NCBI RefSeq assembly: GCF_000703165.1
Contig: NZ_JNLQ01000002.1
Location: forward strand, 1,054,001 to 1,118,000
Direction of reading: 5' to 3'
Length of the DNA: 64,000 nucleotides
Origin: Butyrivibrio sp. AE3004
Lineage (GTDB): Bacteria; Bacillota; Clostridia; Lachnospirales; Lachnospiraceae
The position numbers and the translations under genes are program-made. Shown piece by piece: positions 27,488 to 42,618 of the stretch. Numbering within the stretch: position 1 is the first letter of the stretch; each line of letters opens with the position of its first letter. Under the pieces are notes generated by a model. That model saw only the letters and a list, made by a program, of their open reading frames with translations, was not told the origin of the DNA and made no database searches.

Positions 27488-28528
27488 ATGGGAAATAAGG
27501 GACTAAGATTATTGTTTACTATTCTTTTGATAATGGCGGTAGCATTTCCTTCGAAAATTACTGCTAAGGCAGTAAAAGTTCTGCCTTTCACAAGTCCTTT
27601 GGATTACTCGCTTTCTGATAACTGGCTGTATGATGGTGCTTATCCAGAGAATTCCGTGGATGTCTTTATTGTTGCGCCAACAGTAGATACCAGCAGTGAG
27701 AGCAATTCGGCTATTACACCAAAATACAAAACAAAATTCAGAAATGCCATGAATCAGCAACAGGCCATTTATGCAAAGACAGCAAGGATATATGCTCCGT
27801 ACTATAGGCAGGCTTCCATTAATGTTTATGCCATGGAAGATTCTGCGGCAAAAGAGCAGGCAATGAAGAATGCATATATGGACGTATCAGCGGCGTTTAA
27901 GTATTACATAGAACATAAGAATAACGGCAAACCGCTTATTCTTGCAGGCTTCTCACAGGGGGCAGATATGTGCTACAGGCTCCTTGAAGAATACTATGGC
28001 GGAAGTGAAGAAAGAGCTATAAATCTTAGAGAAAATCTGATTGCTGTATATGCAATAGGATGGAGCATGACGGAAGATATGATAGCGAAGTATCCGCAGA
28101 TAGTTCCTGCAAAGGAAGAGACTGATACCGGTGTTGTAATAAGTTTTGACTGTGAGGATGGAACTGTTACAGATTCTATGGTTATACCTGCAGGAACAAA
28201 GGCAATATCAATCAATCCTCTTAACTGGAGAACGGATAGTACAGTGGCTTCTAAAAAGCTTAATAAAGGAACTGTTACTCAGGATAGCAAGACGGGTGCG
28301 ATTCTTTCCGTGGAAGCGGGAAAGTACGGTGCATATATTGACCCGGTAAGAGGTTCACTTGTAGTAACGGGTATTGATACCAGTCAGTATCCTAAAGTTC
28401 TTGATATTTTCCCTGATGGAAGCCTTCATCTTTATGATAATTTCCTTTTCTTTGTAAATCTTCAGGAGAATGTACAGAAACGAACAGAAAGTTTTATTCA
28501 GAAAAAGGTTTCTTCAAATGCTGCCTGA
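27488..28528 (+). CDS. secreted DUF3089 alpha/beta-hydrolase-like protein
   Basis: 346 aa. The signal peptide is MGNKGLRLLFTILLIMAVAFP with cleavage near TAKA. The nucleophile elbow GFSQGAD (Ser near 165) and the beginning SDNWLYDGAYPENSVDVFIVAPTVD match DUF3089, a lipase/esterase-like family. Extracellular ester hydrolysis is inferred; the substrate is unknown. RBS AAAGGAG. Its last 31 bases overlap the convergent minus-strand gene at 28498. Confidence 0.8.
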   Translation: MGNKGLRLLFTILLIMAVAFPSKITAKAVKVLPFTSPLDYSLSDNWLYDGAYPENSVDVFIVAPTVDTSSESNSAITPKYKTKFRNAMNQQQAIYAKTARIYAPYYRQASINVYAMEDSAAKEQAMKNAYMDVSAAFKYYIEHKNNGKPLILAGFSQGADMCYRLLEEYYGGSEERAINLRENLIAVYAIGWSMTEDMIAKYPQIVPAKEETDTGVVISFDCEDGTVTDSMVIPAGTKAISINPLNWRTDSTVASKKLNKGTVTQDSKTGAILSVEAGKYGAYIDPVRGSLVVTGIDTSQYPKVLDIFPDGSLHLYDNFLFFVNLQENVQKRTESFIQKKVSSNAA

Positions 28529-29541
28529 AGAAGGAAATAACACTTTGCCGGGACAAGCTTAGTATTATCCCAGCGTATCTTAAACCACTTCGGGCGAAAG
28601 CCCAAATGGAAAGGTGCTAAAGAGCCATCCTTAAGTTCAACAGGAACTGACCTTTCAAAGGTAAATTCACCAAGCAACCGGCTTTTTTCTTCGGCCAATC
28701 CATATTTTCTCATCATATCAAGTATTTGCAAGGCAGCTCCCTTTTCAAAAGACTTTCTGATAGATTTTTCAGAACGCTCCTTTAGCATAATTTCAATAGA
28801 AAAGATTTTCCCCATGGTCCCATCCGGATATATATCAAATTGATAACCAAAACCAGCCGGTTCAATCCTTAGAACCTCTGTAATCTGAGATATCATTGTT
28901 TGGTCAAAGGCTGTGAATCCCACTTTGTCGAATATATCCTTTATATGGGATGGATCCTCTTTGCATGATATTACTTCATCTTTCTGTAAGTATCCGCAGA
29001 CACGAAGCGGTGCTTCAGGTCTTTCCCGAAACAGTCCAAAATAAGCCGGTTCCCAGTTTTTAGGAAGACTTTTTCTCATATCATCATACAGATGAAGGCG
29101 TTCTTTTTCTCCTAACAGCTCAAAGAAACGAGTTACAAGGAGTGGATTATTCCTTGGTTCAAAATGGACGGCAACCGGAGGAACAATGGTTTTCTCTGTG
29201 TCTAATTCAAAGCCAAAGCCTACATCCGGATATATCTTTTGAGTGTCTGCGATGTAGTTGATAAGTTCATCATAGCCGATGGCAAGAGGTGAATCAATCT
29301 GCATATTTCTTTCAAGATCACTATATAAAAAGGTCACCGAGAGAGAGGGATCTCCCATTAACGGAAATTCAAAGTATAATTCAGGAAAACTATTCCCCAA
29401 TAAAAAAGCCGGTGCCATTTGCCTTACTCTTTTCAGGGAATCTCCAAAGAACATTCTGTCCATACCGCATTTCTCGGTATAGATACAAAGTGTCTCAAAT
29501 GATTCTGCAAATGTGGGTGTCTTCAATTTTTTACCTCTCAT
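28498..29541 (-). CDS. putative ABBA-fold prenyltransferase-like tailoring protein
   Basis: 347 aa, soluble, last gene of the minus-strand peptide operon. It starts 5 bases after the ATP-grasp stop. I cannot assign a family with certainty. The chain shows repeated helix/beta-hairpin units: ELYFEFPLMG, PPVAVHFEP, AYFGLFRERPEAPLRVCGYL, GYQFDIYPDGTMGKIFSIEI and PKWFKIRWDNTKLVPAKCYF. That alternation and the final K-I...AK-Y pattern recall the PT-barrel enzymes that prenylate peptides (LynF/TruF/PatF type). If so, it would use a prenyl diphosphate to modify Tyr or Trp of the peptide at 36829. The enzyme call is inference; the presence of a real gene is well supported. Confidence 0.45.
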   Translation of the reverse strand: MRGKKLKTPTFAESFETLCIYTEKCGMDRMFFGDSLKRVRQMAPAFLLGNSFPELYFEFPLMGDPSLSVTFLYSDLERNMQIDSPLAIGYDELINYIADTQKIYPDVGFGFELDTEKTIVPPVAVHFEPRNNPLLVTRFFELLGEKERLHLYDDMRKSLPKNWEPAYFGLFRERPEAPLRVCGYLQKDEVISCKEDPSHIKDIFDKVGFTAFDQTMISQITEVLRIEPAGFGYQFDIYPDGTMGKIFSIEIMLKERSEKSIRKSFEKGAALQILDMMRKYGLAEEKSRLLGEFTFERSVPVELKDGSLAPFHLGFRPKWFKIRWDNTKLVPAKCYFLLQAAFEETFF

Positions 29542-29546
29542 ATTCT

Positions 29547-29882
29547 TTACTGCACAAGTCTGCCTTGTTTCTGATTATTGGAAAGAGTTCTTTCAAAGAA
29601 GTAATCATCTAGAATCTGATCTGTCAAATCTCTGAAGTATGGCTGAGCTGTCACAATTTGTACTCCCACATCAGGTTTCGCGTTGTATTCAAGCATTACA
29701 GGATTTCCTTCTGTATCAACAGTGAAATCCCATCCGATCAGTTTTAAATGAGGTATCTGAGTATGCGCGCTGGCAACTGCGTCACATACTTTGCTATAAA
29801 ACGGAATTGAATATCCTTTATTAAATATACCCATGCTCTCAGCATCAAAAAAACCTTTCCCCTTGATATAGACAGTTGTATC
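29547..29882 (-). pseudogene. C-terminal part of the disrupted ATP-grasp gene
   Basis: Gene sequence proper runs from the IS66 boundary to the stop at 29547. It encodes DTTVYIKGKGFFDAESMGIF, then LIGWDFTVDTEGNPVMLEYN, the C-terminal catalytic segment of sugar-transfer-associated ATP-grasp proteins (PF14397-like; the Asp and Glu/Asn bind Mg-ATP). The apparent ORF extends to 29924 only because it reads into the IS end. Without its N-terminal half this fragment cannot be active. Confidence 0.85.
29875..29882. repeat. left 8-bp target site duplication of the IS66 element
   Basis: GTTGTATC here is repeated at 34637-34644. IS66 elements generate 8-bp duplications. Keeping one copy and removing everything between restores the ATP-grasp reading frame exactly. 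Confidence 0.93.
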
Positions 29883-29905
29883 GTAAGCGCGAAATAATCC
29901 GGCGG
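29883..29905 (+). repeat. IS66 left terminal inverted repeat
   Basis: It begins GTAAGCGCG, as is usual for IS66. It matches the reverse complement of the right end at 22 of 23 positions. Its minus-strand sequence also contains the full 13-nt intron target TATTTCGCGCTTA. Confidence 0.93.
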
Positions 29906-30017
29906 ATGTGAATGCGTCCCACAATCACTCATAATGGATTTGAACTATAAACTACATTTTAGTGTGAACACTTGAACTTATGAACTTCATTTTGGTGTCA
30001 CATGGAAAGGATAGCTT

Positions 30018-30419
30018 ATGTCAGATCCCAAGCATTATCGTACTAAAGATGAGTGGTTCAAGCTCGTCCAGGAGTGCCGTAAAAGCGGTTTATCGGACGC
30101 TCAATGGTGCGCATTAAATGGTATCAGCCGTCATTCATTAAACACTGCTATCAAAAGGCTGCGGAAATGTTCTTATGCAATTCCTCCTCGCAGCGCTGAT
30201 GATATATATCACCTGGCCATTCCAAAACAGGATGTGGTCAAAGTGGATATCGTTCCTGATATCCAGCCGCCACAGAAGATCATTCCTGAGGCGGCACCGC
30301 ACATTGACAATTCACATATGATAGAGATAAGTCTTGGAGATGTACATATTTCTCTCTGTAACGGAGCTGATCCGGATCTTGTAACCAGGACTCTCTCAGC
30401 CTTAAGGAGCTTCGTATGA
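30018..30419 (+). CDS. tnpA: IS66 accessory protein TnpA
   Basis: 133 aa. An N-terminal helix-turn-helix (RTKDEWFKLVQECRKSGLSDAQWCALNGISRHSLNTAIKRL) is the OrfA type needed for IS66 transposition. The C-terminal part ends DPDLVTRTLSALRSFV, the common IS66 OrfA pattern. ATG overlap with tnpB follows. Confidence 0.9.
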   Translation: MSDPKHYRTKDEWFKLVQECRKSGLSDAQWCALNGISRHSLNTAIKRLRKCSYAIPPRSADDIYHLAIPKQDVVKVDIVPDIQPPQKIIPEAAPHIDNSHMIEISLGDVHISLCNGADPDLVTRTLSALRSFV

Positions 30420-30760
30420 TCGGCGATATAACAGCTGCAGATGAGATATACATTGTCTGCGGCTACACTGACATGAGAAAGTCTATCGATGGCCTCTGTG
30501 CCATAATCGAAGACAAGCTCCACATGGATCCAAGAAGCAGGGCTCTGTATCTCTTCTGTGGGAGAAGGGCTGACAGGTTCAAGATGCTTCTTTGGGAGCC
30601 GGACGGATTCATACTGTTCTACAAAAGACTATCCGCCGAACAGGGACGATACCGCTGGCCAAGAAACAAGGATGAAGTACGCAACCTGACCTGGCGCGAG
30701 TTCGACTGGCTTCTCTCAGGTATCGATATAGAGCAACCTAAGGCCATTAGAGCCTCTTAA
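30416..30760 (+). CDS. tnpB: IS66 accessory protein TnpB (Orf2)
   Basis: 114 aa, complete. The family signature is plain: YIVCGYTDMRKSIDGLCAII, ALYLFCGRRADRFKMLLWEPDGFILFYKRLSAEQGRYRWP. It starts within the tnpA stop (ATGA) for coupled translation. Confidence 0.93.
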   Translation: MIGDITAADEIYIVCGYTDMRKSIDGLCAIIEDKLHMDPRSRALYLFCGRRADRFKMLLWEPDGFILFYKRLSAEQGRYRWPRNKDEVRNLTWREFDWLLSGIDIEQPKAIRAS

Positions 30761-30910
30761 GGTCTGTGTATCAGTTTTTGTGCATAATTCTGAAATCGCC
30801 TTATATCGGATTAATTAGATGCCGGTTTTCAGATCACTTTGGCACTTTTACCGATATTAATTGCCTTGTAAGTCTGATAAAATCTATATATCAGATGTAA
30901 GGAGGCTGTC

Positions 30911-32578
30911 GTGGCGAGAGATTCCAAGGACCAGCAGCTCATTGAGCTGAAGGACACTGTGAAAGAACTGAATACCACCATCAGAAATCTCAACGCACTC
31001 ATTGAGGCTGCTAACAAACGCGAAGAGGAGCATCTTCTGAAAGAGCAGGAACATATCGAAAGAGAAAAAGTCCTGCAGGAACAGATAGATTACCTCACCA
31101 AGAAACTCTTTGGCAGATCAAGTGAGAAACATGATGATTTTGAGGGACAGCTGAATCTCTTCAATGAAGCCGAAACTCTAAAGGCTGATCCTGATCCCGA
31201 GGAACAGGAATTCACCACCGTCGAGAAACATACCCGCAAGAAAAAATCCAAGATGTCTGATAAGTTTGCAGGCCTCCCTGTCCAGGAGGTTATTCTTGAT
31301 GTTCCTGAAGATGAGCGCATCTGCGATGTCTGTGGCACTCCTCTTGAGAGGATTGGGAAAGAATTTCTTCGCAGAGAGATCGAATTCATTAAGCCAAGTA
31401 TCAAGATCATTGATTACTACAGTGTCAGCTATGGATGTCCTAACTGCAAGATAAATGCTGAGGTCCCGTACATCGTAAGAGGACGCGACGGTCAGGCACA
31501 TATGCTGCACGGCATGGCATCTGCCGGAACAGTTGCGTGGGTAATGTATCAGAAGTATGTTAACTCTCTTCCTCTTTACAGACAGGAAAAAGACTTCAAG
31601 ATGTACGGAGCCGAAATCTGCAGAGGAACCATTGCCAACTGGATAATCAATAACGCTGAAGAGTTCTTCAAGCCTATGTGCAATTACTTCCAGAGAAAGC
31701 TTGTTGCCGGAAGATATGCAATGGCAGACGAAACGCCCGTACAGGTGCTCAAAGAACCAGGGCGCAGGGCTGAATCAAGGTCGTACATGTGGGTTTTCCG
31801 TTCGGGAGAGTTTGATCCGGAGCAGATAGTTCTGTTCCACTATTCTCCGACACGGGCTGGAGATACTGCAAAGGAGTTCCTTGAAGGATTCCACGGGTAC
31901 CTTATGACTGACGGGTACAGTGGATACAATAAGCTCAGGGACTGCACGAGGAATTCCTGCTGGGCGCACATAAGAAGGTATCTTATAGATGCCATTCCCA
32001 AAGGTAAGGAATACGATCACAGCCAGCCGGCAGTACAGGGACTTGCCTATGTCGACAAGCTCTTCGAGATGGAACGGAAAATCCATGAAAAGAAGGGCTC
32101 TGATTTCGATGCCATAAAGAAGTTCCGCCTTGAAAAGGAGAAACCTGTACTTGACGGTTTCTGGAACTGGCTTGACTGCCAGACTGCAATAAAGAATTCC
32201 AGGATGTACAAAGCCCTTGTTTACATCCAAAACAGAAGACCGTTCCTCGAAACCTATCTTGAGGATGGTGGCTGCAGTTTCAATAACAACACTTCCGAGA
32301 GAAGCTGCAAGGCCTTTGTTACTGGCCGCAAGAACTGGCTGTTTTCAGACTCAGTTGATGGCGCAGAGGCAAGTGCTCTTACTTATTCCATTGTTGAAAC
32401 AGCTAAGGCAAATGGCGTTGATGTTTATTACTACCTGAAATATCTTCTCATGAAGTGTCCAACATCTCTTACCAGCGATGAAGATCTTGAGAAGCTCTGC
32501 CCATGGCATCCTGAATGCAAGGAAGCCCTGGATGAACTTCACAGACAGCATCAGAAAGCGATCTTCGACGCAATGTAA
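30911..32578 (+). CDS. tnpC: IS66 transposase TnpC
   Basis: 555 aa with a GTG start after AAGGAGG. An N-terminal coiled coil (about 1-75, with the leucine-rich LKDTVKELNTTIRNLNALI) precedes a zinc-ribbon-like CDVCGTPLERIG and CPNC pair. The DDE_Tnp_IS66 core follows: MADETPVQV, LMTDGYSGYNKL, CWAHIRRYLIDA, and NNNTSERSCKAFVTGRKNWLFSDS near the third acidic residue. Nothing looks broken, so the element may still move, subject to its split right end. Confidence 0.94.
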   Translation: MARDSKDQQLIELKDTVKELNTTIRNLNALIEAANKREEEHLLKEQEHIEREKVLQEQIDYLTKKLFGRSSEKHDDFEGQLNLFNEAETLKADPDPEEQEFTTVEKHTRKKKSKMSDKFAGLPVQEVILDVPEDERICDVCGTPLERIGKEFLRREIEFIKPSIKIIDYYSVSYGCPNCKINAEVPYIVRGRDGQAHMLHGMASAGTVAWVMYQKYVNSLPLYRQEKDFKMYGAEICRGTIANWIINNAEEFFKPMCNYFQRKLVAGRYAMADETPVQVLKEPGRRAESRSYMWVFRSGEFDPEQIVLFHYSPTRAGDTAKEFLEGFHGYLMTDGYSGYNKLRDCTRNSCWAHIRRYLIDAIPKGKEYDHSQPAVQGLAYVDKLFEMERKIHEKKGSDFDAIKKFRLEKEKPVLDGFWNWLDCQTAIKNSRMYKALVYIQNRRPFLETYLEDGGCSFNNNTSERSCKAFVTGRKNWLFSDSVDGAEASALTYSIVETAKANGVDVYYYLKYLLMKCPTSLTSDEDLEKLCPWHPECKEALDELHRQHQKAIFDAM

Positions 32579-32710
32579 TCTTTATCATATGTGAATTGTC
32601 AAGGTGCTCCAGTCTCTTATGAGGCTGGGGTATATTTTATGGGCAAAAACCCTTGTACCTGTTAACATGCCTTGCGGGATAGCGCAACCCGCCGGAATAT
32701 TTCGCGCTTA
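32579..32710 (+). other. IS66 right end with two hairpins
   Basis: Non-coding. It holds a CCAGTCTC/GAGGCTGG hairpin (32610-32630), a GCGGG/CCCGC hairpin (32674-32692) and the right inverted repeat, which ends TTCGCGCTTA at the intron junction. Confidence 0.6.
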
Positions 32711-33236
32711 GTGCGCCCAGCAAAGGGCATGGCATTTAATGGGTGGAAATCCCATTTGGAAAGGTCTAGCCAACCACCAATAGCGACCTTGAACATGCGT
32801 TGGTAACAGCGTAGGTTAAGCGTAGGAAGTTAGGCGATAGGGTCATAAGGCATGTTAGCCCCGAAATAAATTAAGATGGTGTGCCGACGTAATTAAGCGA
32901 TGCGGAAGGCAACACGCGTGCAATTGCTAATGGCGAAGATTGCCGCGACGCCACGGGGTTGAGAGTCAGCCATGTCGCACAATGGTGTCATGTCAACTGG
33001 GGAGAGCCTGTGACTTCCATATCAGGGCAAGTGTGAAGCCCCTAATGTATAAGTGGTATGCCCGACAACTCACGAAGGAGGGCAAATGAGTCATAGGCAG
33101 TCGGATGGCCGCATAGTACCGATGAAGGAGGGTAATGCCTCTGGAGGGAAGGCGAGAAAGGGCTATACCTCTAAGCTCTGCCATGCAAAGCTATATCTTT
33201 GAGGAAACATTATCCATACACAGAGGTGGAACAATA

Positions 33237-34535
33237 ATGTTAACGAAATTGGAGAGAATATCGCAATTATCAAAAGAAAACCCTGAAATGGTCTTTACTT
33301 CCATTGGACATCTCATTGACAAGGAAATGTTAATGGAATGTCACAATAAGATGGAAAAGGATAAAGCCGTAGGAATCGACGGAGTAACAAAAGAGGAATA
33401 CGGGAATAATCTTGATGAGAACCTTGATAGGCTAATAGCGAGTCTGAAGAAGAAATCATATAGGCCACAACCTGCAAAGAGAGTTGAGATACCAAAGGGA
33501 AATGGAAAGACCAGACCTTTAAGTATCTACTGTTATGAAGATAAGCTGGTACAAGAAGCGCTTAGGCGCATATTGGAAGCAGTCTTTGAACCTCATTTCT
33601 ATGAGGAGATGATGGGATTCAGGAACGGCCGTAGCTGTCATATGGCACTAAGAAAACTAAATTCTATGATTGAGAAACAGAAGACAAACTATATACTTGA
33701 CGCCGATATTAAAGGGTTCTTCGACCATATCGACCATAGATGGGCAGTCAAATTTGTAGAGTCAAGGATTAAAGACCCGAACGTTATACGACTGGTTAGG
33801 CGGATGCTGAAATCAGGGATAATAAAGGACTTTCAATATGAGGAAACAGAAGAAGGTAGTGGACAAGGGTCGGTCTGTTCACCTGTCATAGCAAATATAT
33901 ACATGCATTACGTATTTCTGTGGTGGTTTAATGATGTTGTTAAGCCACAGTTGAGAGGCTATGCAGGGGCGGTAGTTTATGCGGATGACTTTGTTGTATG
34001 CTTTCAGTACAAAGATGAAGCTGAACAATTCTACAAAAGGCTGAAACACAGAATGGAATACTTTGGACTGGAACTGGAAGAAAGCAAGAGTCGACTGATT
34101 GAATTCGGTAGATTTGCCGAAAGAGACAGGCGAAACAGAGGGCAGGGAAAACCTGAAACCTTCGACTTTCTGGGTTTTACACACTACTGTTCCAAGAGTC
34201 GGAACGGGAAGTTCAGGGTGAAGAGGAAGACTAGCAAGAAAAAGTTCACAAAGAAATGCAAAGAAGTCAATCGATGGTTGGCTGATATGAGAACCTTGCC
34301 GTTACAGGAAATCATTAAGAGAGTGAACAGCATGCTAGTTGGATATTTCCATTACTACGGGATCACTGACAACTCAAAGGCTATATCTGATTTTAAATAT
34401 ATAGTACGAAAGCTTCTGTTCAAGTGGCTTAACCGCAGAAGCCAGCGGCGAAGTTATAACTGGGGCCAGTTCAACGATATGTTGAGAGACTACCCCCTTG
34501 CAACGCCCAGAACGTACGTCAGTATCTATGAATGA
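33237..34535 (+). CDS. ltrA: group II intron reverse transcriptase/maturase
   Basis: 432 aa from the ATG at 33237, preceded by GAGGTGG. RT motifs include PKGNGKTRPLSIYCYEDKLVQ, MMGFRNGRSC, LDADIKGFFDHID, GSGQGSVCSPVIANIYMHY and the catalytic AVVYADDFVV. Domain X (maturase) is in the C-terminal third (KFTKKCKEVNRWL...YYGITDN). No HNH endonuclease follows, so it is an RT-X protein of the endonuclease-lacking kind, which homes using nicks or replication-fork primers. Confidence 0.94.
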   Translation: MLTKLERISQLSKENPEMVFTSIGHLIDKEMLMECHNKMEKDKAVGIDGVTKEEYGNNLDENLDRLIASLKKKSYRPQPAKRVEIPKGNGKTRPLSIYCYEDKLVQEALRRILEAVFEPHFYEEMMGFRNGRSCHMALRKLNSMIEKQKTNYILDADIKGFFDHIDHRWAVKFVESRIKDPNVIRLVRRMLKSGIIKDFQYEETEEGSGQGSVCSPVIANIYMHYVFLWWFNDVVKPQLRGYAGAVVYADDFVVCFQYKDEAEQFYKRLKHRMEYFGLELEESKSRLIEFGRFAERDRRNRGQGKPETFDFLGFTHYCSKSRNGKFRVKRKTSKKKFTKKCKEVNRWLADMRTLPLQEIIKRVNSMLVGYFHYYGITDNSKAISDFKYIVRKLLFKWLNRRSQRRSYNWGQFNDMLRDYPLATPRTYVSIYE

Positions 34536-34562
34536 TGGTTGTTGAATAATTTACTTTGCAAG

Positions 34563-34635
34563 GAGCCGGATGCGAGAAAGACGCACGTCCGGTTCTGTAG
34601 AGGGATAAGGGGAGAAATCCCCTTATCTACTCGAC
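34563..34635 (+). ncRNA. group II intron domains V and VI
   Basis: Domain V is the canonical ~33-nt hairpin with the AGC catalytic triad at its base. Domain VI has a 9-bp stem and the bulged adenosine candidate at 34629. These form the catalytic core of the ribozyme. Confidence 0.9.
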
Positions 34636-34636
34636 C

Positions 34637-34644
34637 GTTGTATC
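34637..34644. repeat. right 8-bp target site duplication of the IS66 element
   Basis: GTTGTATC, identical to 29875-29882, directly after the last IS base at 34636. Confidence 0.93.
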
Positions 34645-35454
34645 AAGTTGCCCACCGTCCTGGATACGAGACGCCGGTGAACCAATAATACAATACTTAC
34701 GTCCTTCTCCGGGAATCCGGATTACCTCTGAAATAATGGTCACCTTACTATTTAAAAACAACGAATCGATGCGAATTGTGCAGACACCACTATTACACAG
34801 GTGTGAAAGTTCCTCATGCTGATGTACTTTCTCCTGTACTATAAAGTTAGCTCCCATCTCATCAAAGAAACGAAGGTAGTCCTTAAGAGTTCTCCCTTGG
34901 GGTGTAATAGCCCGTACACCTTGGGCTTTTGATGTATAAAGAGACTCTTTAAAAAATAAAGTCTCTCCGTCTTCAATACATATCCGAGCAGCTTTGGTTT
35001 TATCAATAAGTCTTCCGTCCGTATCATAGAATTCACCGGAAATCCTGCTGCAAACAGTCACAGGCTGTTTAATATCCGGGAGCATCCTGGCAAATATGCA
35101 TTTATCAGCCAGAGCTTCGCCAAACTGAAGATTGTTTAAGTATGGAAGGAGTTCAAAATAGTAGAAATCATCCGGAATAAATCGCGGATCAGATACATTT
35201 CCTCTTCCTCCATAATAGTCGAACCAGAGCCTCTTAGGTTTTTGGTCATATATACTCCAATAAGGAAGAATGCACTCCTCGTAGTCACAATAAAACCTGT
35301 CACTGCCAAGATTATCAAGGTATTTGTTTACGTTATCCTCAAGTTCTGATGAAATCCAGTGCCTTTTAGCTTTAATTGCAGCTTCAAGAGCACTTTCATA
35401 TTCTTCCTTATTGCTTTTGGGGTATTCATATTCTCCGGCATTAAATCTAAGCAT
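34637..35454 (-). pseudogene. N-terminal part of the disrupted sugar-transfer-type ATP-grasp gene
   Basis: It starts at ATG 35454 (MLRFNAGEYEYPKS), 54 bases after the glycosyltransferase stop, and is cut at the IS66 site. It encodes the ATP-grasp N and central regions (DGRLIDKTKAARICIEDGET, LFFKESLYTSKAQGVRAITP, ANFIVQEKVHQHEELSHLCN, VCTIRIDSLF), typical of PF14397. Joined to 29547-29874 with one target copy, the gene is 1146 nt (381 aa), in frame across the junction (GGQLD-TTVYIKGKG). The family ligates carboxylates to amines or hydroxyls using ATP; in a peptide locus it could tailor or crosslink the core. The present strain should lack the activity. Confidence 0.88.
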
Positions 35455-35508
35455 CTCAGTCTTTGCAATTTCCTGAAGACATATTTCCTTTCCGACATCG
35501 TTCTCATA

Positions 35509-36825
35509 TCAGTTATCTAACCTGGTATGTGTACCGAAGGCTGGAATAAACACAACATTTTTATCCCTAAGCCAGGAATTATTAGAAAAAATAAGCTTCG
35601 TTCTGTGAATATGAAAACCAGCGGTAATAATCGCTATGCGCAGATCTTCCTTATTCTTTTGCTTGCCTGTAGCCAAATCCTTCCGGATCAAAGATGCGGA
35701 ATACTCAAGATTATGCCTGGTATTCCTGGAATATTTTTCCACAAGGATCCTATTGTCAGGAATTCCTTTTTCCAGAAGATGCTTCCGCATGTGCTCAGCT
35801 TCCGTTAAAACTCCATCTATACTTGGGTTTCCGCCGCTTAAGATAAAGACAGTATCAGAATCAGCACCTCCTATTTCAAATGCTTTTTCTGCCCTGTAAG
35901 CACAGTTTGAACTTCCTAGCACAAGAATATAATCAAATCTGCCCTTATAGTCATCCATCTTTCCAAAAATCAGGTTGTTGATCTTTGAAAGATTTTCTTT
36001 TTTTTCATCAGGAAAAGCTTGGAATCTTCCAAGCATATGTCTGATCTCGTTTGAGAGATCGTTGCCTGCAAATTCTGCTTTTTCCGGCACTGAAGTCTTA
36101 CATGAAAGGCTTATGAAGCACTGCATCTTAGCTTTATGCAGCATCATGATAATGTCATAATAATCAGATAAAGATCTGTTTGACGCAGAATTCGTATTCC
36201 TCTGAATGTAATTGAACATCTTAATCGAAGAAGTAACGATACTCCTACACTTTTTTATATAGTCGTAGTTAAAGAGTCTGTCCTCTCCGAATGACAGACT
36301 CTCTCTGAATCTGATGCTAAATCTGTCTAGAATGTCTCTGCGATAAAGCTTGTTGCATGCAGAATAAACCAGCAGATGCCTCATTCGGATGTAGTCATCT
36401 GCAAAGTCTGAAGGATTTTCGTATACATGATCCCGGAGCCAAAAAGGAATTCTCTGCCCATCCGCCTCTATGCGATCATAGCCCAAAACATACAGATCCT
36501 TTTTACTCTCCAAAAGAACTTTACATTCTTCAAAAAAAGCCGGTTTCAAAGTATCGTCACAGTCAAGGAAAGCTACATAATCGCCTGTGGCATATTCAAT
36601 ACCCGTATTACGGGCAATGGAAACTCCTCTATGTGAAAGATAATGAATTTGGATCTGCTCAGATATCCCCTCAAATTCACCAAGGCATAAAGCGGTCTCG
36701 TCATCCGATCCGTCATCAATAACGATGACTTCATATTCCTCCGTAATCCGGTCCAGCACAGATGCCAAGGTCTCTCTAAGATAACCTGCACGATTATACG
36801 TCGGAAGTATCAGTGAAAGTCTCAT
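35509..36825 (-). CDS. family 2 glycosyltransferase fused to a DUF218/YdcF-like domain
   Basis: 438 aa. The N-terminal GT-A part has LILPTYNRAGYLRETL, the nucleotide-sugar DDGS (37-40) and the metal-binding DCDD (88-91); it runs to about residue 250. From about 295 a YdcF/DUF218 fold follows: YILVLGSSNCAYRAEKA, FILSGGNPSIDGVLTEAEHM, ILVEKYSRNTRHNLEYS, IAIITAGFHIHRTKLIF. This combination is unusual. The gene begins 3 bases after the precursor peptide stop, so the enzyme probably glycosylates that peptide or a linked product. No signal peptide or membrane helix, so it acts in the cytosol. Confidence 0.82.
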   Translation of the reverse strand: MRLSLILPTYNRAGYLRETLASVLDRITEEYEVIVIDDGSDDETALCLGEFEGISEQIQIHYLSHRGVSIARNTGIEYATGDYVAFLDCDDTLKPAFFEECKVLLESKKDLYVLGYDRIEADGQRIPFWLRDHVYENPSDFADDYIRMRHLLVYSACNKLYRRDILDRFSIRFRESLSFGEDRLFNYDYIKKCRSIVTSSIKMFNYIQRNTNSASNRSLSDYYDIIMMLHKAKMQCFISLSCKTSVPEKAEFAGNDLSNEIRHMLGRFQAFPDEKKENLSKINNLIFGKMDDYKGRFDYILVLGSSNCAYRAEKAFEIGGADSDTVFILSGGNPSIDGVLTEAEHMRKHLLEKGIPDNRILVEKYSRNTRHNLEYSASLIRKDLATGKQKNKEDLRIAIITAGFHIHRTKLIFSNNSWLRDKNVVFIPAFGTHTRLDN

Positions 36826-36828
36826 ATT

Positions 36829-37008
36829 TCACTGCCATTTTCCTTTCCCATCATAATCACCATCCCAGATGCCTCCTCCTGATAAAAGGTCCATCTCATC
36901 ATCTGTCAATTCATATCCTTCAGATTGGGCGAGTTTTAAAAGTTCTTCGGGTGTTTTACATTTTTTGGCCATTTCTTTTTGTTCAGGTGTTAGATCTTTA
37001 AATCTCAT
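36829..37008 (-). CDS. Nif11-type RiPP precursor peptide
   Basis: 59 aa, with AGGAGG six bases before ATG. The leader (1-46) has the Nif11/TIGR03798 C-terminal pattern: KTPEELLKLAQSEGYELT then DDEMDLLSGGG, ending in a double-glycine protease site. The core that would remain is IWDGDYDGKGKWQ: two Trp, one Tyr, three Asp and Lys, all good targets for tailoring, but no Cys, Ser or Thr, which argues against lanthionine or thiazole formation. It is the first gene of the minus-strand operon with glycosyltransferase, ATP-grasp and the PT-like gene. No leader peptidase/exporter is seen nearby. Confidence 0.82.
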   Translation of the reverse strand: MRFKDLTPEQKEMAKKCKTPEELLKLAQSEGYELTDDEMDLLSGGGIWDGDYDGKGKWQ

Positions 37009-37043
37009 AGCATTCCTCCTGTTGCTTTTGTCATATTATTTAC

Positions 37044-37084
37044 TAAAAGTGTATTGAAATGAGCGTTCCGCATGTGTGAATAAT
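37044..37084 (-). promoter_or_regulatory. shared promoter element, copy before the RiPP precursor
   Basis: On the minus strand TTATTCACACATGCGGAACG continues with CTC and, 15 bases from the start of GAACGC, a -10-like TACACT. The same block occurs at 37165 (+) and 39981 (+). It lies about 36 bases before the precursor start. An activator site overlapping the -35 is inferred. Confidence 0.65.
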
Positions 37085-37164
37085 GAAGCAATAATAGCTT
37101 GTTTTATAGAAAGTCTATAGTTAGTTTATGAATAATTTATGAAATATAGAGAATATGCTAACAA

Positions 37165-37200
37165 TAATTCACACATAGCGAACGCTCGGCTATGTAGAAT
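37165..37200 (+). promoter_or_regulatory. shared promoter element, copy before the 97-aa gene
   Basis: TAATTCACACATAGCGAACG followed by CTC and TAGAAT at the same distance as in the other two copies. It is in inverted orientation to the copy at 37044-37084, so one 270-base region drives both directions. Confidence 0.62.
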
Positions 37201-37278
37201 ATTTTTTGTCAGAAAAAACAGGTACATGATTGCCAAAGGGCAGCAAAAATACAAACTTAAATTAAAAGGAGGCCTACA

Positions 37279-37572
37279 ATGAACCAAGCAGAAGCATTAA
37301 AAGAATTACAGTCAAACGAGCAGCAGGCAAAGCAGTTCAATATGGTTGCAGCATTCATGAATGAAGCTGTCAGAAACAATATGCCGGTGTTTATGAAGCT
37401 GGTACAGTTCGATGTCCTTAAAGCAATCCAGGAAAAGGCAGTTGAGGATAAGGTTGCAGGTGAAAACACCAGTGAAAAGCAGCTTACAGAGGCCCTTGAT
37501 AGTTTACTTGGACAGATCAACAAGGATCTGGAAGCCCAAATTATTAAGAAGTTTGAAGAACTGAAGAAGTAA
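37279..37572 (+). CDS. 97-aa helical protein of unknown function
   Basis: AAAGGAGG precedes the ATG. The protein is soluble, charged and almost wholly helical (NEQQAKQFNMVAAFMNEAVR, TEALDSLLGQINKDLEAQII), with no Cys and no double-glycine site. No family recognised. It is divergent from the RiPP operon and shares the promoter element with it, so an immunity, chaperone or co-regulated role is possible but unproven. A strong terminator follows. Confidence 0.7.
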   Translation: MNQAEALKELQSNEQQAKQFNMVAAFMNEAVRNNMPVFMKLVQFDVLKAIQEKAVEDKVAGENTSEKQLTEALDSLLGQINKDLEAQIIKKFEELKK

Positions 37573-37589
37573 TAGAAACCAGGCAATTA

Positions 37590-37626
37590 AAAAACTGCCA
37601 TCACTTTTGACTGGTGGCAGTTTTTA
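37590..37626 (+). terminator. intrinsic terminator after the 97-aa gene
   Basis: An AAAAACTGCCA/TGGCAGTTTTT stem encloses a partly paired loop, ending in a T-run. Confidence 0.85.
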
Positions 37627-37676
37627 GTTTGCAAAAAAGCGTATGAAGATAGTTTGGAAAAGAAATACATGCAAAA

Positions 37677-37685
37677 TGTTATAAT
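37677..37685 (+). promoter_or_regulatory. extended -10 promoter for the acyltransferase-like gene
   Basis: TGTTATAAT gives a consensus -10 with the TG extension, 43 bases before ATG 37728. The best -35 (TTGGAA at 37654) is 20 bases away, weaker than usual. Confidence 0.45.
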
Positions 37686-37727
37686 GAACTTGGGCAGTAA
37701 TATAAGGGTTATGGAAAGGAATCTTCT

Positions 37728-38999
37728 ATGAAGTATGATTATGATAGTTATATGTTTTATGAGTATTCCAAAAACTTCGCATTTACCGTAAGAATCAGGG
37801 TAAGACTTAAAGACAGGATAGACGGAGAGATTCTGGAGGATGCTGCTAAAAAAGCATTTAAGCGTTTCCCTTATTTCAATAAAAAGGTAATGATTGATGA
37901 GGAAGGCGGATATGTTCTCCTTGATAATGATAAGCCTATAGTGGTGACAAAAGAATCCCCCAAACCCGTTGTCCTTGGCGGTAATGATGCAAATGATCAA
38001 TTCTTTTTGATAACCTATGAGGATAGAGATATCTTTTTTAATTTCAGCCACTGCTTTTGCGGAGGCTTTGGGGCGATGTTCTGGATAAAGACAACGCTTT
38101 GGCAATATCTTTCGGATAAAACAGGAGACACCTTTAGTGCAGAGGGATTAAAACTGCCGGGAAGCCCATTGGAAGAAGGCGAAATGGCACTTCCGGATGT
38201 GAATGCATTTCCTGAAGATGCACCTATCACGGAATACAAAGGCGGAAATTCGTTTGTTCCTATCGGAGAGTACCTGGCTTATTACCTCAATCCTTTTTCG
38301 GGAGATGCTACATATTTTCCGATTGAGATAGATCTTAAAAAGCTGATGAGCTACGCCAAGAGTAACGATGGAAGTCCCAATTCTATCGTTGCAGCCTTTA
38401 TGTTTAAAGCACTTCGAAAGGTATGGGCAGACAATAAGAAGGCAACTGAGATTTCAGCCCGAATTTCAATGAATTATAATGCTGATGTAGGGTGCCCTAA
38501 TACCTACAGAGATCTTGTTCGTCAGCTCCATGTAAAATACAAGAATGAAATGCTGGACTGGCCTATCAGCAAGATCAGTACTGTGACCAGGGCAGGTATG
38601 TTTCTTCAGATGGAACCGGAAGTAAGCTTTAAGGAATATAAGACAGTAGTAGAGCATAGAGAAAATATCGACAGGCCAAAGACTCACAAGGGAAAATGCA
38701 AGTATGCATCGAACAATTCTCTCCTTAGAAAAGGTATTGCAGACTCATATACCGTAAGCTACACAGGCAGGATTGATTGGGGGAATATGGCGGATTATAT
38801 CGAATCAATCTATAACATAACCGACGGTCATCTGATGCTGGAGATGAATGCAATACAGGATAAACTGTTCCTCAATTTCCAACAGGTTAATAAGAAAAGA
38901 GAATATCTGGATGCATTTGTAGAAGAACTAAAGGCAGAGGGTATTGAAGTAAAAGTTGGGCCGATGCAGTATAAAAAGCTGCCAAGGCTTAAATTATAA
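37728..38999 (+). CDS. condensation/alcohol-acyltransferase-like protein (degenerate motif)
   Basis: 423 aa, CoA-dependent acyltransferase superfamily (chloramphenicol acetyltransferase, NRPS condensation fold) by layout: an N-terminal beta-rich substrate half and the histidine motif near residue 108, here FNFSHCFCGGFGAMF. The usual HxxxDG is HCFCGG, so the structural Asp is lost. It is a paralog of the gene at 55626, which keeps HGLCDG; both share the YDYD/YNVR-VRLKD-IDG opening and overall length. Substrate unknown; activity is doubtful for this copy. Confidence 0.65.
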   Translation: MKYDYDSYMFYEYSKNFAFTVRIRVRLKDRIDGEILEDAAKKAFKRFPYFNKKVMIDEEGGYVLLDNDKPIVVTKESPKPVVLGGNDANDQFFLITYEDRDIFFNFSHCFCGGFGAMFWIKTTLWQYLSDKTGDTFSAEGLKLPGSPLEEGEMALPDVNAFPEDAPITEYKGGNSFVPIGEYLAYYLNPFSGDATYFPIEIDLKKLMSYAKSNDGSPNSIVAAFMFKALRKVWADNKKATEISARISMNYNADVGCPNTYRDLVRQLHVKYKNEMLDWPISKISTVTRAGMFLQMEPEVSFKEYKTVVEHRENIDRPKTHKGKCKYASNNSLLRKGIADSYTVSYTGRIDWGNMADYIESIYNITDGHLMLEMNAIQDKLFLNFQQVNKKREYLDAFVEELKAEGIEVKVGPMQYKKLPRLKL

Positions 39000-39038
39000 T
39001 TGTTGTTGACATGAATAATAGCAAAAATGGAGATGCCA

Positions 39039-39521
39039 ATGGTTATAAAAGTACCTGAAGGAACTGTGATAATGCATGAAGGTGAAGCCAATATGGATAT
39101 GTACAAGATTATATCCGGTAATGTTGAGCTTTACAGGGGCTATGAAACCAAGGATGAGGCAATAATAGGTATAAAATCTAAAGATGATTATTTCGGAGAA
39201 ATGGGGCTTCTCACAGGTGGAAAGCCAGCCATTTATACCGTGGTGACGTACTCTGATGTGCTTCTTCTTAGAATTACCGAAAAGGATATAGATGACTTCA
39301 TTCTTAAGAACCATGTCGATGTTCTCAGAATCATGCAGGGCATGGCCAATTCTATGTATAACATCAAGTTCAGCATGGACATGATCATTGATGATATGGC
39401 CAAGGAGGGCAATAGCGCAAAGCTAAAAGATTTTAAGGGCTTTTACTCCAAACAGCTTGCCATGTATAATGCTTTCAAGATGATAGATTCCTCTTCAAAA
39501 AAAATAGATAAAAAAGCATAA
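39039..39521 (+). CDS. stand-alone cyclic-nucleotide-binding domain protein
   Basis: 160 aa from ATG 39039, which has GGAG six bases upstream; an ATG at 39027 without a site is the alternative. The CRP-like beta-roll is clear (VPEGTVIMHEGEANMDMYKIISGNVELY, DDYFGEMGLLTGGKPAIYTVVT). The phosphate-binding cassette reads GEMGLLTGGKPAIYT, lacking the Arg-Ala seen in cAMP binders. There is no DNA-binding domain after it, only a helical tail, so it may sense a ligand and act through a partner. Confidence 0.75.
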   Translation: MVIKVPEGTVIMHEGEANMDMYKIISGNVELYRGYETKDEAIIGIKSKDDYFGEMGLLTGGKPAIYTVVTYSDVLLLRITEKDIDDFILKNHVDVLRIMQGMANSMYNIKFSMDMIIDDMAKEGNSAKLKDFKGFYSKQLAMYNAFKMIDSSSKKIDKKA

Positions 39522-39552
39522 AAATTGGAGCTCAGACGGGCTCCAATTTTTT
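39521..39552. terminator. bidirectional intrinsic terminator
   Basis: AAAATTGGAGC/GCTCCAATTTTTT with an 8-nt loop. T-runs exist in both directions. Confidence 0.82.
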
Positions 39553-39624
39553 ATGCTTTTTCCAACACCAAATTACTACAGCAGCAATTAGTACTGCACT
39601 GATTGTTATTAAATAGCGTATAAA
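39532..39624 (-). pseudogene. possible remnant of a membrane-protein C-terminus
   Basis: The minus-strand frame reads FFIRYLITISAVLIAAVVIW then CWKKHKKLEPV and stops. This is a clean transmembrane helix with a basic end, but it has no start codon and is cut off near the SPASM fragment. It may be the tail of a lost gene. Confidence 0.3.
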
Positions 39625-39633
39625 AAATATAGA

Positions 39634-39915
39634 ATGTTTCCTAATATGCTACAAACACCATTAGAAGAGATTCTTGACTCAGACTCACTGTACATGGATA
39701 TAGTTAATTACAGAGTAAGTGATTTTATGGAGCACAATACGGATTGCAGAGAATGTGAGTACCGGACAATGTGTTGCGGAGGCTGCCGGGCCGTGGCCTT
39801 GAATACAACTCCTGATGACTATTTAGGTAAAGATATGGTCGCATGTGAGTTTTTTAGAGGTGGATGGAAGAAAAGAGTTGACGAGCTGCTTAATAAACTT
39901 GGAGTTGGAGCTTAA
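39634..39915 (+). pseudogene. C-terminal SPASM fragment of a radical SAM maturase
   Basis: 93 codons that encode only the SPASM end of a radical SAM protein: LEEILDSDSLYMDIVNYRVS, then the cluster-binding CRECEYRTMCCGGCRA and MVACEFFRGGWKKRVDELL. The CX3CX5C style Cys spacing for an auxiliary Fe-S cluster is intact, but the CX3CX2C radical SAM core is missing. The apparent ATG is an internal Met. Such enzymes often mature RiPPs, so this may be debris from a larger version of the neighbouring locus. Confidence 0.8.
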
Positions 39916-39980
39916 CAATAGTATTTGAGGATTTTTTGATTTTATAAAAATTTTACAATAAGTAGTCAAAATCTTTACAT

Positions 39981-40016
39981 TTATTCACACATACGGAACG
40001 CTTGGTTCTATACACT
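39981..40016 (+). promoter_or_regulatory. shared promoter element, copy before the 4-TM gene
   Basis: TTATTCACACATACGGAACG followed by CTT and, at the same spacing as the other copies, TACACT. It lies about 50 bases before the start at 40065. Confidence 0.65.
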
Positions 40017-40064
40017 CTATATTAAAGAAGCTTGCAGAAAGCACCATTTAAGGAGGAAAGCATC

Positions 40065-40505
40065 ATGAGTATTGAAACAAGTAATAAGATATTAAAAGTA
40101 ACGGGTATTATCACTTTGATCTTTGGAATTCTCGGTGTGATTGCGGGAATCGTACTTATCATAGGAGCACGTGCTCTTGGCACTGTTGCTGATGTAGCAC
40201 CTGGCGAAGAGGAAGCAGCAGCTGCAGTTGGTATGGGGGCGACATCTCTTATTGTTGGTATAATTTTATTGATATCCAGTATAGTTGAGATTCTTGAGGG
40301 ATGGTTCTCAGTTAGGGCTTCAAAGGACAACGCCAAAATCATGCCGGCATGGATATTTGCAATTTTGGGAGTTATAGGCAGTATTGGAACTCTCATATCA
40401 ACCATTGGAGATGATGCAAAAGGTGTTGTCGGTGCAATAGTTGGTGTTGCACTTTCTATACTGATCTTTATAGCTGCCAATACGATAAAGAAATCAAATG
40501 GGTAA
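40065..40505 (+). CDS. 146-aa four-helix membrane protein
   Basis: Start at 40065 after AGGAGGAAAGCATC. Four hydrophobic helices: KVTGIITLIFGILGVIAGIV, ATSLIVGIILLISSIVEI, IMPAWIFAILGVIGSIG, VVGAIVGVALSILIFIAAN. No family assigned with confidence. It is controlled by the same promoter element as the RiPP precursor, so immunity or membrane-stress protection against the peptide is a reasonable guess. Confidence 0.7.
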   Translation: MSIETSNKILKVTGIITLIFGILGVIAGIVLIIGARALGTVADVAPGEEEAAAAVGMGATSLIVGIILLISSIVEILEGWFSVRASKDNAKIMPAWIFAILGVIGSIGTLISTIGDDAKGVVGAIVGVALSILIFIAANTIKKSNG

Positions 40506-40535
40506 TATTGTGTAACAATTAATGATGACAAAAAT

Positions 40536-40586
40536 GGGCGTTTACCAGATGTGGAATTAATACATAGGGGAAACGCCCTGTGTTTT
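40536..40586 (+). terminator. intrinsic terminator after the 4-TM gene
   Basis: GGGCGTTT/AAACGCCC with a 27-nt loop, followed by TGTGTTTT. Confidence 0.6.
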
Positions 40587-40729
40587 ACTAAAGATTCGAT
40601 ATTTAAACCTAGGAACGGGGAAATGTATATCAGATTGACAGAAAAAGCAGTCCTTGCTGGTAAGTGGGTGTGCCACTGGATCCACAATAACTAAATACTA
40701 AATGATTGACGATTTAAAGTGTCAATGTT

Positions 40730-40741
40730 GTACAATTGTAC
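40730..40741. promoter_or_regulatory. perfect 12-bp palindrome in the two-component promoter region
   Basis: GTACAATTGTAC sits between TTGACG (40706) and a TATGATAAT -10-like box (40742-40750), just before the sensor operon. Operator role is inferred. Confidence 0.4.
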
Positions 40742-40771
40742 TATGATAATTAGATCATAGAGGTGATTCTT

Positions 40772-41524
40772 TTGAAAGGTTTAGTGGCATCGAATTTTAG
40801 GCGAATACATAAAGGGCTGCTATTTGATATTATTATTATGATGGTAAGTCCTTTATTAATATTGTTGTTTGGGCAGCTCCTCAATTATCAGATGATTGAT
40901 GACGGGTATGCTGCAAGTGAGATTACTATGAGCAGCGTGACGCAGTATTCCAGCGTGACTACAAAGTTTCTCTATGTAATTGAAATCTTCAGGTACTGTG
41001 GGTCAGCGCTTTGCTATTTACTTGTTATAAGCGGACTCGATGAGGTATTAAAACTTTCTGCCTCGTATAATAATTCCAGAAGAGGCTTTCTTACGCTGAT
41101 CCTGGTAAATGCAATTGCACTTACAATTAAAATAGTATCTTTGATAACCGGTGAAGGGGACTTCTATGCATGGTCTGAATCGCTGTATGCAGTTATAGAT
41201 TTTCTGATAAAGATAGTCCTTGGAGCCTCTTTATTTATGTTGCTTCGTGGAAACATGGATGTGCTTCGCAGCATAGGAGAGGAAGTGGCAGTGTATCGAA
41301 ATCAGACCCTCTCTATGAGAGTTGCTATTTCTTTTCCTATACTCGGAATCGTAATTCTAGCTGACCATTTTGCTCCGGAAATGCCGTTGGGGTTCACAGT
41401 AGTCGTTTTTGTTTTTATGGTTTTTGTCTGGATATATACGTTTATAGCATATTTACGGGGATGTTTATGTGCCAGGGAAGTAGCAAGGATAGTTTCTGTT
41501 ATCTCTGAAGAGGTCATATCATGA
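40772..41524 (+). CDS. multi-pass membrane protein of the sensor operon
   Basis: 250 aa from TTG 40772, which AGAGG serves at 8 bases; the GTG at 40763 overlaps that site. About six hydrophobic helices with few conserved features. No family recognised. It overlaps the kinase gene by 4 bases (ATGA), so it is probably a membrane partner in signal detection or a third member of the regulatory unit. Confidence 0.65.
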   Translation: MKGLVASNFRRIHKGLLFDIIIMMVSPLLILLFGQLLNYQMIDDGYAASEITMSSVTQYSSVTTKFLYVIEIFRYCGSALCYLLVISGLDEVLKLSASYNNSRRGFLTLILVNAIALTIKIVSLITGEGDFYAWSESLYAVIDFLIKIVLGASLFMLLRGNMDVLRSIGEEVAVYRNQTLSMRVAISFPILGIVILADHFAPEMPLGFTVVVFVFMVFVWIYTFIAYLRGCLCAREVARIVSVISEEVIS

Positions 41525-42618
41525 ATGCAATAATAGCTTGCAATTTGATACTGGACAGCTGCGGTATATTGATCCTGCTGCTTCTTCTGATACCGGCATA
41601 TGTTAAGAAAAATATCGGCGAAAAGAATAATCTTAGAGGGCGATTTCTTATATATGCCATGGCGGTCCATTACTATGTCTTATTTATCAATCTGATAGGG
41701 AACCTATGTATATTTTTTGCCGATGCGAAGCAGGTTGAGATTGTATGTGACGCAATGTCGCGAATTTTTATATATTTTTCTGTTGCGATAATAGCAGTAA
41801 GTATATTTTGCGATGAGAATAGTAATCTAACAATTCCTCATGGATGTGATATTCCGGTAAGGCAGATAGCATGCATGGTAATTCCAATGATATTTGCTTT
41901 CTGCATATCTCTTTTTCTCCCTAAACTGCATTTATACTCTGTTGCATGGTCTGTTTCACTTAATCTGATCTACTATATGAACCTTATAGATACGCAGGAG
42001 CGGCTTGAAGAGGAAGAGAGAAAGCTTGAGTTATCCAGGGCGGCTCAGATGGCAATTCAGATGCAGCCTCATTTTGTTTTTAATACGTTGTCTTCCATTA
42101 AAACATTATGTCGTACAGATCCGGAGGCTGCAGAAGAAAGCATTGATAATCTGGCAGGGTATCTTAGGGGCAATATTGATGCGCTTTCCTGTGAGGGCTT
42201 GATACCCTTTGACGAAGAGATGCGACATATTCATCAGTACGTAGCATTGGAGCATGCCGATCCGTCACAGAGTTTTTCTTTTGATTATGAGCTTAATGTC
42301 AGGGATTTTTCCGTACCACCATTATGTGTTCAAACCTTGGTAGAAAATGCGGTAAAGCATGGAGCACTTGTGCATCGCGATGGTACTGGAAAAGTGTTTA
42401 TGTCTACGGATATGTTGGGTGATTATATTCAGATTGTTATTACTGATAATGGACCTGAACATGTGGACCTGACTGATGCTCAGAAGCAGAAAAAAGGAAT
42501 TGGTATCAGTAATACAAAGAAACGCCTTCAGGCACTATGTGATGGGAGCTTGTCAATCAGTTCAGATAGTCAGGGAACAAAGGTGGTAATAATGATTCCA
42601 CAAAAGGGGAGGAAGTAA
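41521..42618 (+). CDS. LytS/AgrC-like sensor histidine kinase
   Basis: 365 aa. Five or so N-terminal membrane helices (1-155), a short helical linker (TQERLEEEERKLELSRAAQM), then a His_kinase (PF06580) domain with the phosphoacceptor His184 in MQPHFVFNTLSSIKTLC. The ATPase part has N box TLVENAVKHGAL and G boxes DNGP and GIGISNTKKRL. It phosphorylates the response regulator encoded directly after it (0-base gap). Confidence 0.88.
   Translation: MNAIIACNLILDSCGILILLLLLIPAYVKKNIGEKNNLRGRFLIYAMAVHYYVLFINLIGNLCIFFADAKQVEIVCDAMSRIFIYFSVAIIAVSIFCDENSNLTIPHGCDIPVRQIACMVIPMIFAFCISLFLPKLHLYSVAWSVSLNLIYYMNLIDTQERLEEEERKLELSRAAQMAIQMQPHFVFNTLSSIKTLCRTDPEAAEESIDNLAGYLRGNIDALSCEGLIPFDEEMRHIHQYVALEHADPSQSFSFDYELNVRDFSVPPLCVQTLVENAVKHGALVHRDGTGKVFMSTDMLGDYIQIVITDNGPEHVDLTDAQKQKKGIGISNTKKRLQALCDGSLSISSDSQGTKVVIMIPQKGRK

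Follow-up and report, generated by a model that had tools for sequence, protein, structure and literature searches.

Within a 64,000-nt stretch of the Butyrivibrio sp. AE3004 genome (contig NZ_JNLQ01000002.1, positions 1,054,001 to 1,118,000; hereafter, the window), a minus-strand operon opens with a gene for a 59-aa peptide carrying a Nif11-type leader and includes a gene for a 347-aa protein predicted to adopt the fold of aromatic prenyltransferases. With a probability of about 0.72, we regard the two as the core of a leader-guided gene cluster, and of a wider family, for tryptophan-prenylated ribosomally synthesized and post-translationally modified peptides (RiPPs), the product of which would be exported in trans by a C39/NHLM transporter. 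The features central to this proposal are the following.

36829..37008, minus strand: gene for the 59-aa precursor, the leader being of the Nif11 type with an L(X)4M motif and a Gly-Gly site (open reading frame; Pfam Nif11, 27.9 bits, above the cut-off of 23.8)
36874..37008, minus strand: leader, residues 1-45, ending in Ser-Gly-Gly (translation; similar to leaders at prenyltransferase loci)
36832..36873, minus strand: core GIWDGDYDGKGKWQ, free of Cys, with Trp as residues 3 and 13 of the core (translation)
28498..29541, minus strand: predicted peptide prenyltransferase (PT) with an alpha-beta-beta-alpha (ABBA) fold, 347 aa, new sequence family (predicted model and fold comparison)

The 347-aa enzyme and its association with Nif11 peptides

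The sequence-only reading, a preliminary annotation of this DNA, had left the 347-aa protein unassigned while describing it as PT-like, and both descriptions hold. No family in Pfam or NCBIfam matches it at E<=1, and its AlphaFold2 model (pLDDT 94.5) displays the ABBA aromatic-prenyltransferase fold, most closely resembling tryptophan and indole prenyltransferases, at 10-12% identity in those comparisons. The repeated alpha-beta-beta-alpha barrel is present in the predicted models of both the window PT and a paralogue. The second PT of locus L027 has no Pfam or NCBIfam match at E<=0.01, and a profile of the PT family found no match among the sequences of solved structures. The enzyme has 74 homologues. 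Across 18 sequences from two divergent subfamilies, a Glu, an Arg, a Lys and a Tyr are invariant in the alignment, Glu58 and Lys333 being candidate active-site residues, and the window PT retains the residues common to the other aligned PT sequences. The 347-aa proteins most likely form a new prenyltransferase family that accompanies Nif11 peptides with an early core Trp.

Scanning genome contigs, we identified 53 PT loci, most of them in sequences titled Coriobacteriia from ruminants and some in Clostridia, with Lachnospiraceae bacterium AC2029 and Olsenella intestinalis KCTC 25379 among the named members; a single-sequence PT query yielded no match in 36 other genomes of the same genus, several of which are incomplete. 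The pairing of enzyme and Nif11 precursor is found in other genomes. Among 140 Coriobacteriia genomes, a few of which are fragments (the genome family of G064, an uncultured Coriobacteriaceae and the source of locus L008), 38 encode the PT, 46 encode Nif11 peptides and 36 encode both, that is, Nif11 occurs in 36/38 PT genomes versus 10/102 PT-free ones (Fisher p=7e-22). Among 299 Lachnospiraceae genomes, the PT is found in 3 and Nif11 in 12, including all three PT genomes (one being that of AE3004) versus 9/296 PT-free genomes (Fisher p=5e-5). Both p-values are too small, given that the genomes share ancestry and the group centres were chosen. Genomes reached via the PT loci contain Nif11 matches in 28 of 30 cases, with up to 24 matches per genome. 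At 15 of the 53 loci, a Nif11 peptide is encoded within 5 kb of the PT, and at L026, L028, L030, L045 and L048 the peptide gene lies 6-41 bases from it.

Precursor peptides and the early-Trp pattern

As the sequence-only reading had stated, the 59-aa Nif11 precursor heads a tight operon; AGGAGG stands immediately 5' of its ATG. Scoring above the Pfam cut-off, it falls below that of the NCBIfam model leader_Nif11 (21.2 bits; cut-off 32.3). Its leader contains LTDDEM...SGG, that is, an L(X)4L-like motif and a Gly-Gly cleavage site, with the core beginning behind Gly44-Gly45, and all 125 leaders kept in the leader-profile set described below fit the same loose motif/Gly-Gly pattern. The translated core contains Trp and is free of Cys, Ser and Thr, as had been noted, and relatives of the precursor in other genomes combine a conserved leader with variable cores, the distribution anticipated for a precursor family. 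These sequence features support a RiPP-type precursor that is ordinary for the Nif11 type.

The cores from PT genomes tend to carry Trp close to the putative cleavage site. Under a fixed pattern rule, which was hand-written after viewing both sets and admits some non-precursor frames on both sides, Trp falls within core residues 1-6 in 97/134 cores from PT genomes versus 7/78 from 25 PT-free genomes, and within residues 1-3 in 80/134 versus 3/78. Counted by genome, 37/46 PT genomes encode at least one core with Trp among its first three residues, versus 3/25 PT-free ones, the latter figure being 4 rather than 3 if G100, the identical core of which was counted once, is restored; ten cores had no assigned genome. 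The three PT-free cores that carry Trp this early all represent a single peptide type. The PT-side sequences were the best matches first rather than all matches, and the precursor of the window was excluded; its core, with Trp at position 3, agrees with the pattern. The rule was applied to 35 PT-free genomes, of which 25 yielded cores and 10 none, and 7 of the 10 PT-free Coriobacteriia with Nif11 were used in the counts. A PT search of the 19 phylum-level controls was negative, an empty answer that is weak alone, but the same query found the enzyme in other genomes. Long, often zinc-ribbon-like cores follow the pattern as well, with early Trp in 34/39 of those from PT genomes (leader-profile set, described below) and in none from the PT-free genome G469. 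Among the short Trp cores, 73/77 also contain Cys.

The fixed rule replaced a count based on a leader profile trained on leaders from PT loci, in which Trp occupied residues 1-6 in 111 of 125 distinct PT-genome cores (residues 1-3 in 96) and in 0/29 PT-free cores. The 29 control cores originated from two genomes only, and matches without Gly-Gly at the end of the profile were lost (16 distinct ones on the PT side, with and without early Trp, and 5 on the PT-free side).

G469, a Lachnospiraceae genome in which the Lachnospiraceae search gave no PT match, encodes approximately 25 distinct Nif11 peptides (L173-L181); most of their cores are long and zinc-ribbon-like, and early Trp occurs in none.

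From these patterns we infer the reaction with its donor, site and timing, as well as the export in trans and the biological role. The Nif11 leader would bind the 347-aa enzyme and present the core, the Trp at the third residue after Gly-Gly would enter the barrel, and a prenyl diphosphate would be ionised so that its prenyl group alkylates the indole. A C39/NHLM exporter encoded elsewhere in the genome would then cleave behind Gly-Gly and export the product, for which a role as a signal or an antimicrobial would be a guess. The proposal makes a sharp prediction, namely, that modification would affect one Trp close to the cleavage site and would require the leader.

Several observations weigh against this proposal. 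Early Trp is lacking in 37 of the 134 cores from PT genomes, and likewise in four of the five cores of G297, which sit at a second locus away from the PT. Conversely, one early-Trp peptide type, a Gly-Gly peptide with the core WVHDYGFG..., is encoded in four PT-free Coriobacteriia genomes (at L183, L185, L186 and L189). Two PT genomes of the Coriobacteriia group have no Nif11 match, and at 28/53 PT loci, many of them on short contigs, no peptide, maturase or NHLM-like exporter is found nearby. Each genome group is centred on a known PT holder and the genomes are related to one another, such that the p-values overstate independence. The active-site residues are putative, as conserved positions of the alignment, and in the window an insertion between the operon start and the PT gene may cut the latter off from the operon promoter. 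Finally, the fold, conserved residues, co-occurrence, Trp pattern and breakage of the operon were all computed, and the case for prenylation is a computational one.

State of the Butyrivibrio locus and alternative readings

The remaining features in and near the operon are as follows.

35509..36825, minus strand: GT2-DUF218 fusion, a predicted glycosyltransferase (GT), 438 aa, 3 bases past the precursor stop (Pfam PF00535 and PF02698)
34627..35454, minus strand: N-terminal portion of the split ATP-grasp gene (ATPgrasp_ST, 28.7 bits, under the cut-off of 31.4)
32711..34635, plus strand: group II intron with reverse transcriptase/maturase at 33135-34535 (Rfam RF02005, RF00029; RVT_1, GIIM)
30018..32578, plus strand: IS66-type element genes (open reading frames; Pfam TnpB_IS66, DDE_Tnp_IS66), comprising 30018-30419 (open reading frame only), TnpB at 30416-30760 and TnpC at 30911-32578
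29547..29924, minus strand: C-part of the broken ATP-grasp gene (ATPgrasp_ST, PF14397, 55.6 bits)
39634..39915, plus strand: SPASM remnant of a radical S-adenosylmethionine (SAM) enzyme, 2.6 kb from the precursor, cluster membership uncertain (TIGR04085, 28.7 bits, cut-off 27)

The GT2-DUF218 fusion is positioned as the sequence-only reading had described; the ATP-grasp gene, which had been taken for an intact member of the operon, proved to be in two parts 4,702 bases apart, split by the IS66 genes and the group II intron, both on the plus strand. The N-part shares 34% identity with residues 10-241 of a whole relative and the C-part 40% with residues 297-383. The IS66 part lies between the arms of a 22-nt inverted repeat (29884-29905 / 32689-32710). 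The intron RNA domains map to 32746-32967 and 34561-34635 on the plus strand, with the 5' end (32711) set by reading of GTGCG; because the intron is antisense to the ATP-grasp gene, it cannot be spliced from the ATP-grasp transcript. The SPASM remnant lacks the radical-SAM part and the window contains no other radical-SAM gene, which the lack of Cys in its core may explain. The number of promoter-like matches in the region, 22, is at chance level (19.9 expected).

Related sequences also carry lesions. Butyrivibrio sp. VCD2006 matches the window over as many as 2,754 bases at a stretch, with 99.6% identity, and joins window position 28944 to 41653, thereby lacking the precursor, GT, ATP-grasp and the N-terminal part of the PT; a Nif11 search of its genome (G090) gave no match. 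In public near-copies, which lie on short contigs where assembly error is possible, the precursor is cut after the leader (P0077) or has another core end (P0075), and the PT has a different, shorter N-part (P0001). Together with the broken ATP-grasp gene, these lesions suggest decay, or repeated insertion, in Butyrivibrio. Whether the window locus is itself a dead relic, with product and enzymes defunct, is a separate matter from what the family does elsewhere, and the two readings do not compete. The split gene, the VCD2006 deletion and the altered near-copies speak for a relic and the intact precursor, GT and PT frames, as well as the residues that the window PT retains, speak against it; we give the relic somewhat less than even odds.

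The family-level proposal has to be weighed against the possibility that the PT acts on a small molecule, such as free Trp or another indole, and that chance or a shared exporter accounts for the Nif11 peptides in its vicinity. The nearest folds are indeed tryptophan and indole prenyltransferases, namely CymD, MpnD, PriB and 5-/6-DMATS, which we take to act on the free amino acid or small indoles, and 38/53 PT loci have no peptide within 5 kb. Those enzymes share 10-12% identity with the window PT, and the window family differs from them in its link to RiPP precursors. The co-occurrence of PT and Nif11 across genomes, the Trp pattern of the cores and the peptide genes at 6-41 bases from the PT all argue against a small-molecule substrate, which we accordingly deem unlikely.

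The sequence-only reading had also proposed a class defined by all four genes. GT2-DUF218 proteins are common (234 at E<=1e-40, with both domains in nearly all of the best 120), and at the 53 PT loci we found no close relative of the GT or the ATP-grasp, with one weak GT match at L012. Among the 299 Lachnospiraceae genomes, 3 match the GT at E<=1e-50 and 4 the ATP-grasp at E<=1e-15, AE3004 included in both; none of the others is a PT genome, and only G469 has Nif11, on contigs other than that of the GT. The nearest Lachnospiraceae relatives of the GT adjoin what by eye are seemingly housekeeping and efflux genes rather than RiPP genes, as do those of the ATP-grasp. The best relatives of both are in G450, which is neither a PT nor a Nif11 genome, on different contigs. 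A conserved four-gene pathway yielding a glycosylated, ligated and prenylated peptide is thus improbable despite the tight spacing in the window (3, 54 and 5 bases, the insertion left aside), given the search results at the PT loci and in the Lachnospiraceae genomes, the commonness of GT2-DUF218 proteins and the broken ATP-grasp gene. The sequence-only reading had named non-recurrence of the four genes as grounds for refutation; judged in this way, the four-gene class fails and the pair of enzyme and precursor passes. Most likely, the two genes are local or accessory. Of the chemistries originally envisaged, Trp prenylation has indirect support, and we found none for ATP-grasp ligation or for glycosylation, the latter being possible but unsupported. 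Neither does the locus resemble a graspetide cluster, the ATP-grasp being of the sugar-transfer-associated type PF14397, broken and without a relative beside the PT elsewhere, nor a prenylated-lanthipeptide cluster, given a core without Cys, Ser or Thr and a scan of nine window proteins that revealed no lanthionine synthetase. A general scan of the window neighbours, which included no dedicated cyanobactin search, revealed no PatA/PatG-type proteases.

Neighbours at other PT loci and relation to known systems

At the other loci, the PT keeps varied company. A tandem PT is present at 14/53 loci, with L027 and L045 as examples, and a radical-SAM protein similar to maturases lies within 5 kb at 11/53; these proteins score above the cut-off of the SPASM model and match several maturase models, though at values under the equivalog cut-offs. 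A similar ATP-binding cassette (ABC) gene was detected within 8 kb at nine loci, seven of which are NHLM-like on check, namely two ABC1 above the cut-off and five ABC2 at 695-707 bits, just below 709.4. The other two candidates were discarded, the L016 gene being importer-like and the L029 gene unsupported as an NHLM exporter. Some relatives are accompanied by the NHLM exporter families TIGR03796, TIGR03797 and TIGR03794 (ABC1/ABC2/HlyD). Overall, at 25/53 loci the PT has at least one of these partners (peptide, maturase, NHLM-like exporter) in its vicinity. The most complete unit, L170, comprises ABC2, ABC1 and HlyD, all over the NHLM equivalog cut-offs, together with a PT and a radical-SAM/SPASM protein, and its precursor is encoded on the opposite strand; L172 resembles it, with an ABC2 just under the cut-off. 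G297 carries a compact set of a precursor with the core INWLCEQDLNCLTR, a radical-SAM protein and a PT. The scan covered 226 of 259 listed neighbours and considered the 25 commonest families, so that rare neighbours may be missed; no lanthionine synthetase occurs in the top 25 of 120 or the top 25 of 98 PT-neighbour families.

In AE3004 itself, an exporter operon (L190) lies approximately 590 kb from the window, with an ABC1 above and an ABC2 just under the NHLM cut-off. This operon holds two Gly-Gly peptides of its own.

A broader formulation, to which we assign slightly less than even odds, is that these loci belong to an extensive class, as yet without a name, of RiPPs prenylated under leader guidance in Coriobacteriia and Clostridia of the rumen and gut, in which one PT serves scattered early-Trp precursors and tandem PTs and radical-SAM proteins take part. 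The second, divergent PT copy, often adjoining the first, could form a two-subunit enzyme with it, and the radical-SAM maturase would be a second modifier where the core holds Cys. The family sits in anaerobic rumen bacteria, alongside dozens of short peptides that contain Trp; if the proposal is correct, a single enzyme would generate an entire library of lipidated peptides, much as one LanM serves the prochlorosins. A livestock-relevant ecosystem would thereby gain a further class of such peptides, and new tools for Trp prenylation would become available.

Nif11/NHLP RiPP precursors with NHLM exporters were reportedly described by Haft et al. in 2010. The window family shares with those systems the leader type, the Gly-Gly site and, in some relatives, the exporter families, and adds to them a prenyltransferase partner and the early core Trp. 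The closest described parallel is MppC from Moorena producens, an ABBA enzyme that geranylates Trp in the Nif11-leader peptide MppE in a leader-dependent manner (PMC12715784). Both systems combine an ABBA-type PT, a Nif11-like leader with L(X)4L and a core Trp as the known or proposed acceptor; leader guidance, required in MppC/MppE, is by analogy a proposal for the window family. A LanM macrocyclises MppE before prenylation (PMC12715784), whereas the top families of PT neighbours here include no lanthionine synthetase and some PT loci carry a radical-SAM protein instead. Cyanobactin prenyltransferases (PatF, PirF, KgpF and others) act without a leader (PMC12715784), and their precursors and gene sets differ from those of the window family. 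ComQ and PalQ prenylate Trp in ribosomal peptides, as proposed here, but PalQ belongs to the isoprene-synthase superfamily rather than to the ABBA enzymes, and PalX has an NHLP-type leader and a C-terminal Trp (PMC10853753).

In the literature covered, peptide prenylation by ABBA enzymes is cyanobacterial, and the need for a leader has been demonstrated for MppC (PMC12715784). The earlier statement that no described class matches stands for the open PubMed Central literature (subscription papers and preprints being outside this scope), in which we found no report of the family among the papers listed. The words prenyl and Nif11 are absent from the main text of a 2026 survey of rumen bacteriocins, and the passages considered from a 2026 review of peptide prenylation mention neither Nif11 nor MppC. 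The novelty lies in the enzyme family and in the combination of predicted ABBA enzymes with Nif11 peptides that carry an early Trp; the system most likely falls within prenylated RiPPs and is not a separate kind.

Elsewhere in the window, positions 47692-54409 hold an apparent mobilisable element encoding an actin-like protein, a MobA/MobL relaxase and a large serine recombinase. Two proteins of approximately 424 aa with a similar start and no Pfam match (37728-38999 and 55617-56894) are, by eye, condensation- or acetyltransferase-like.

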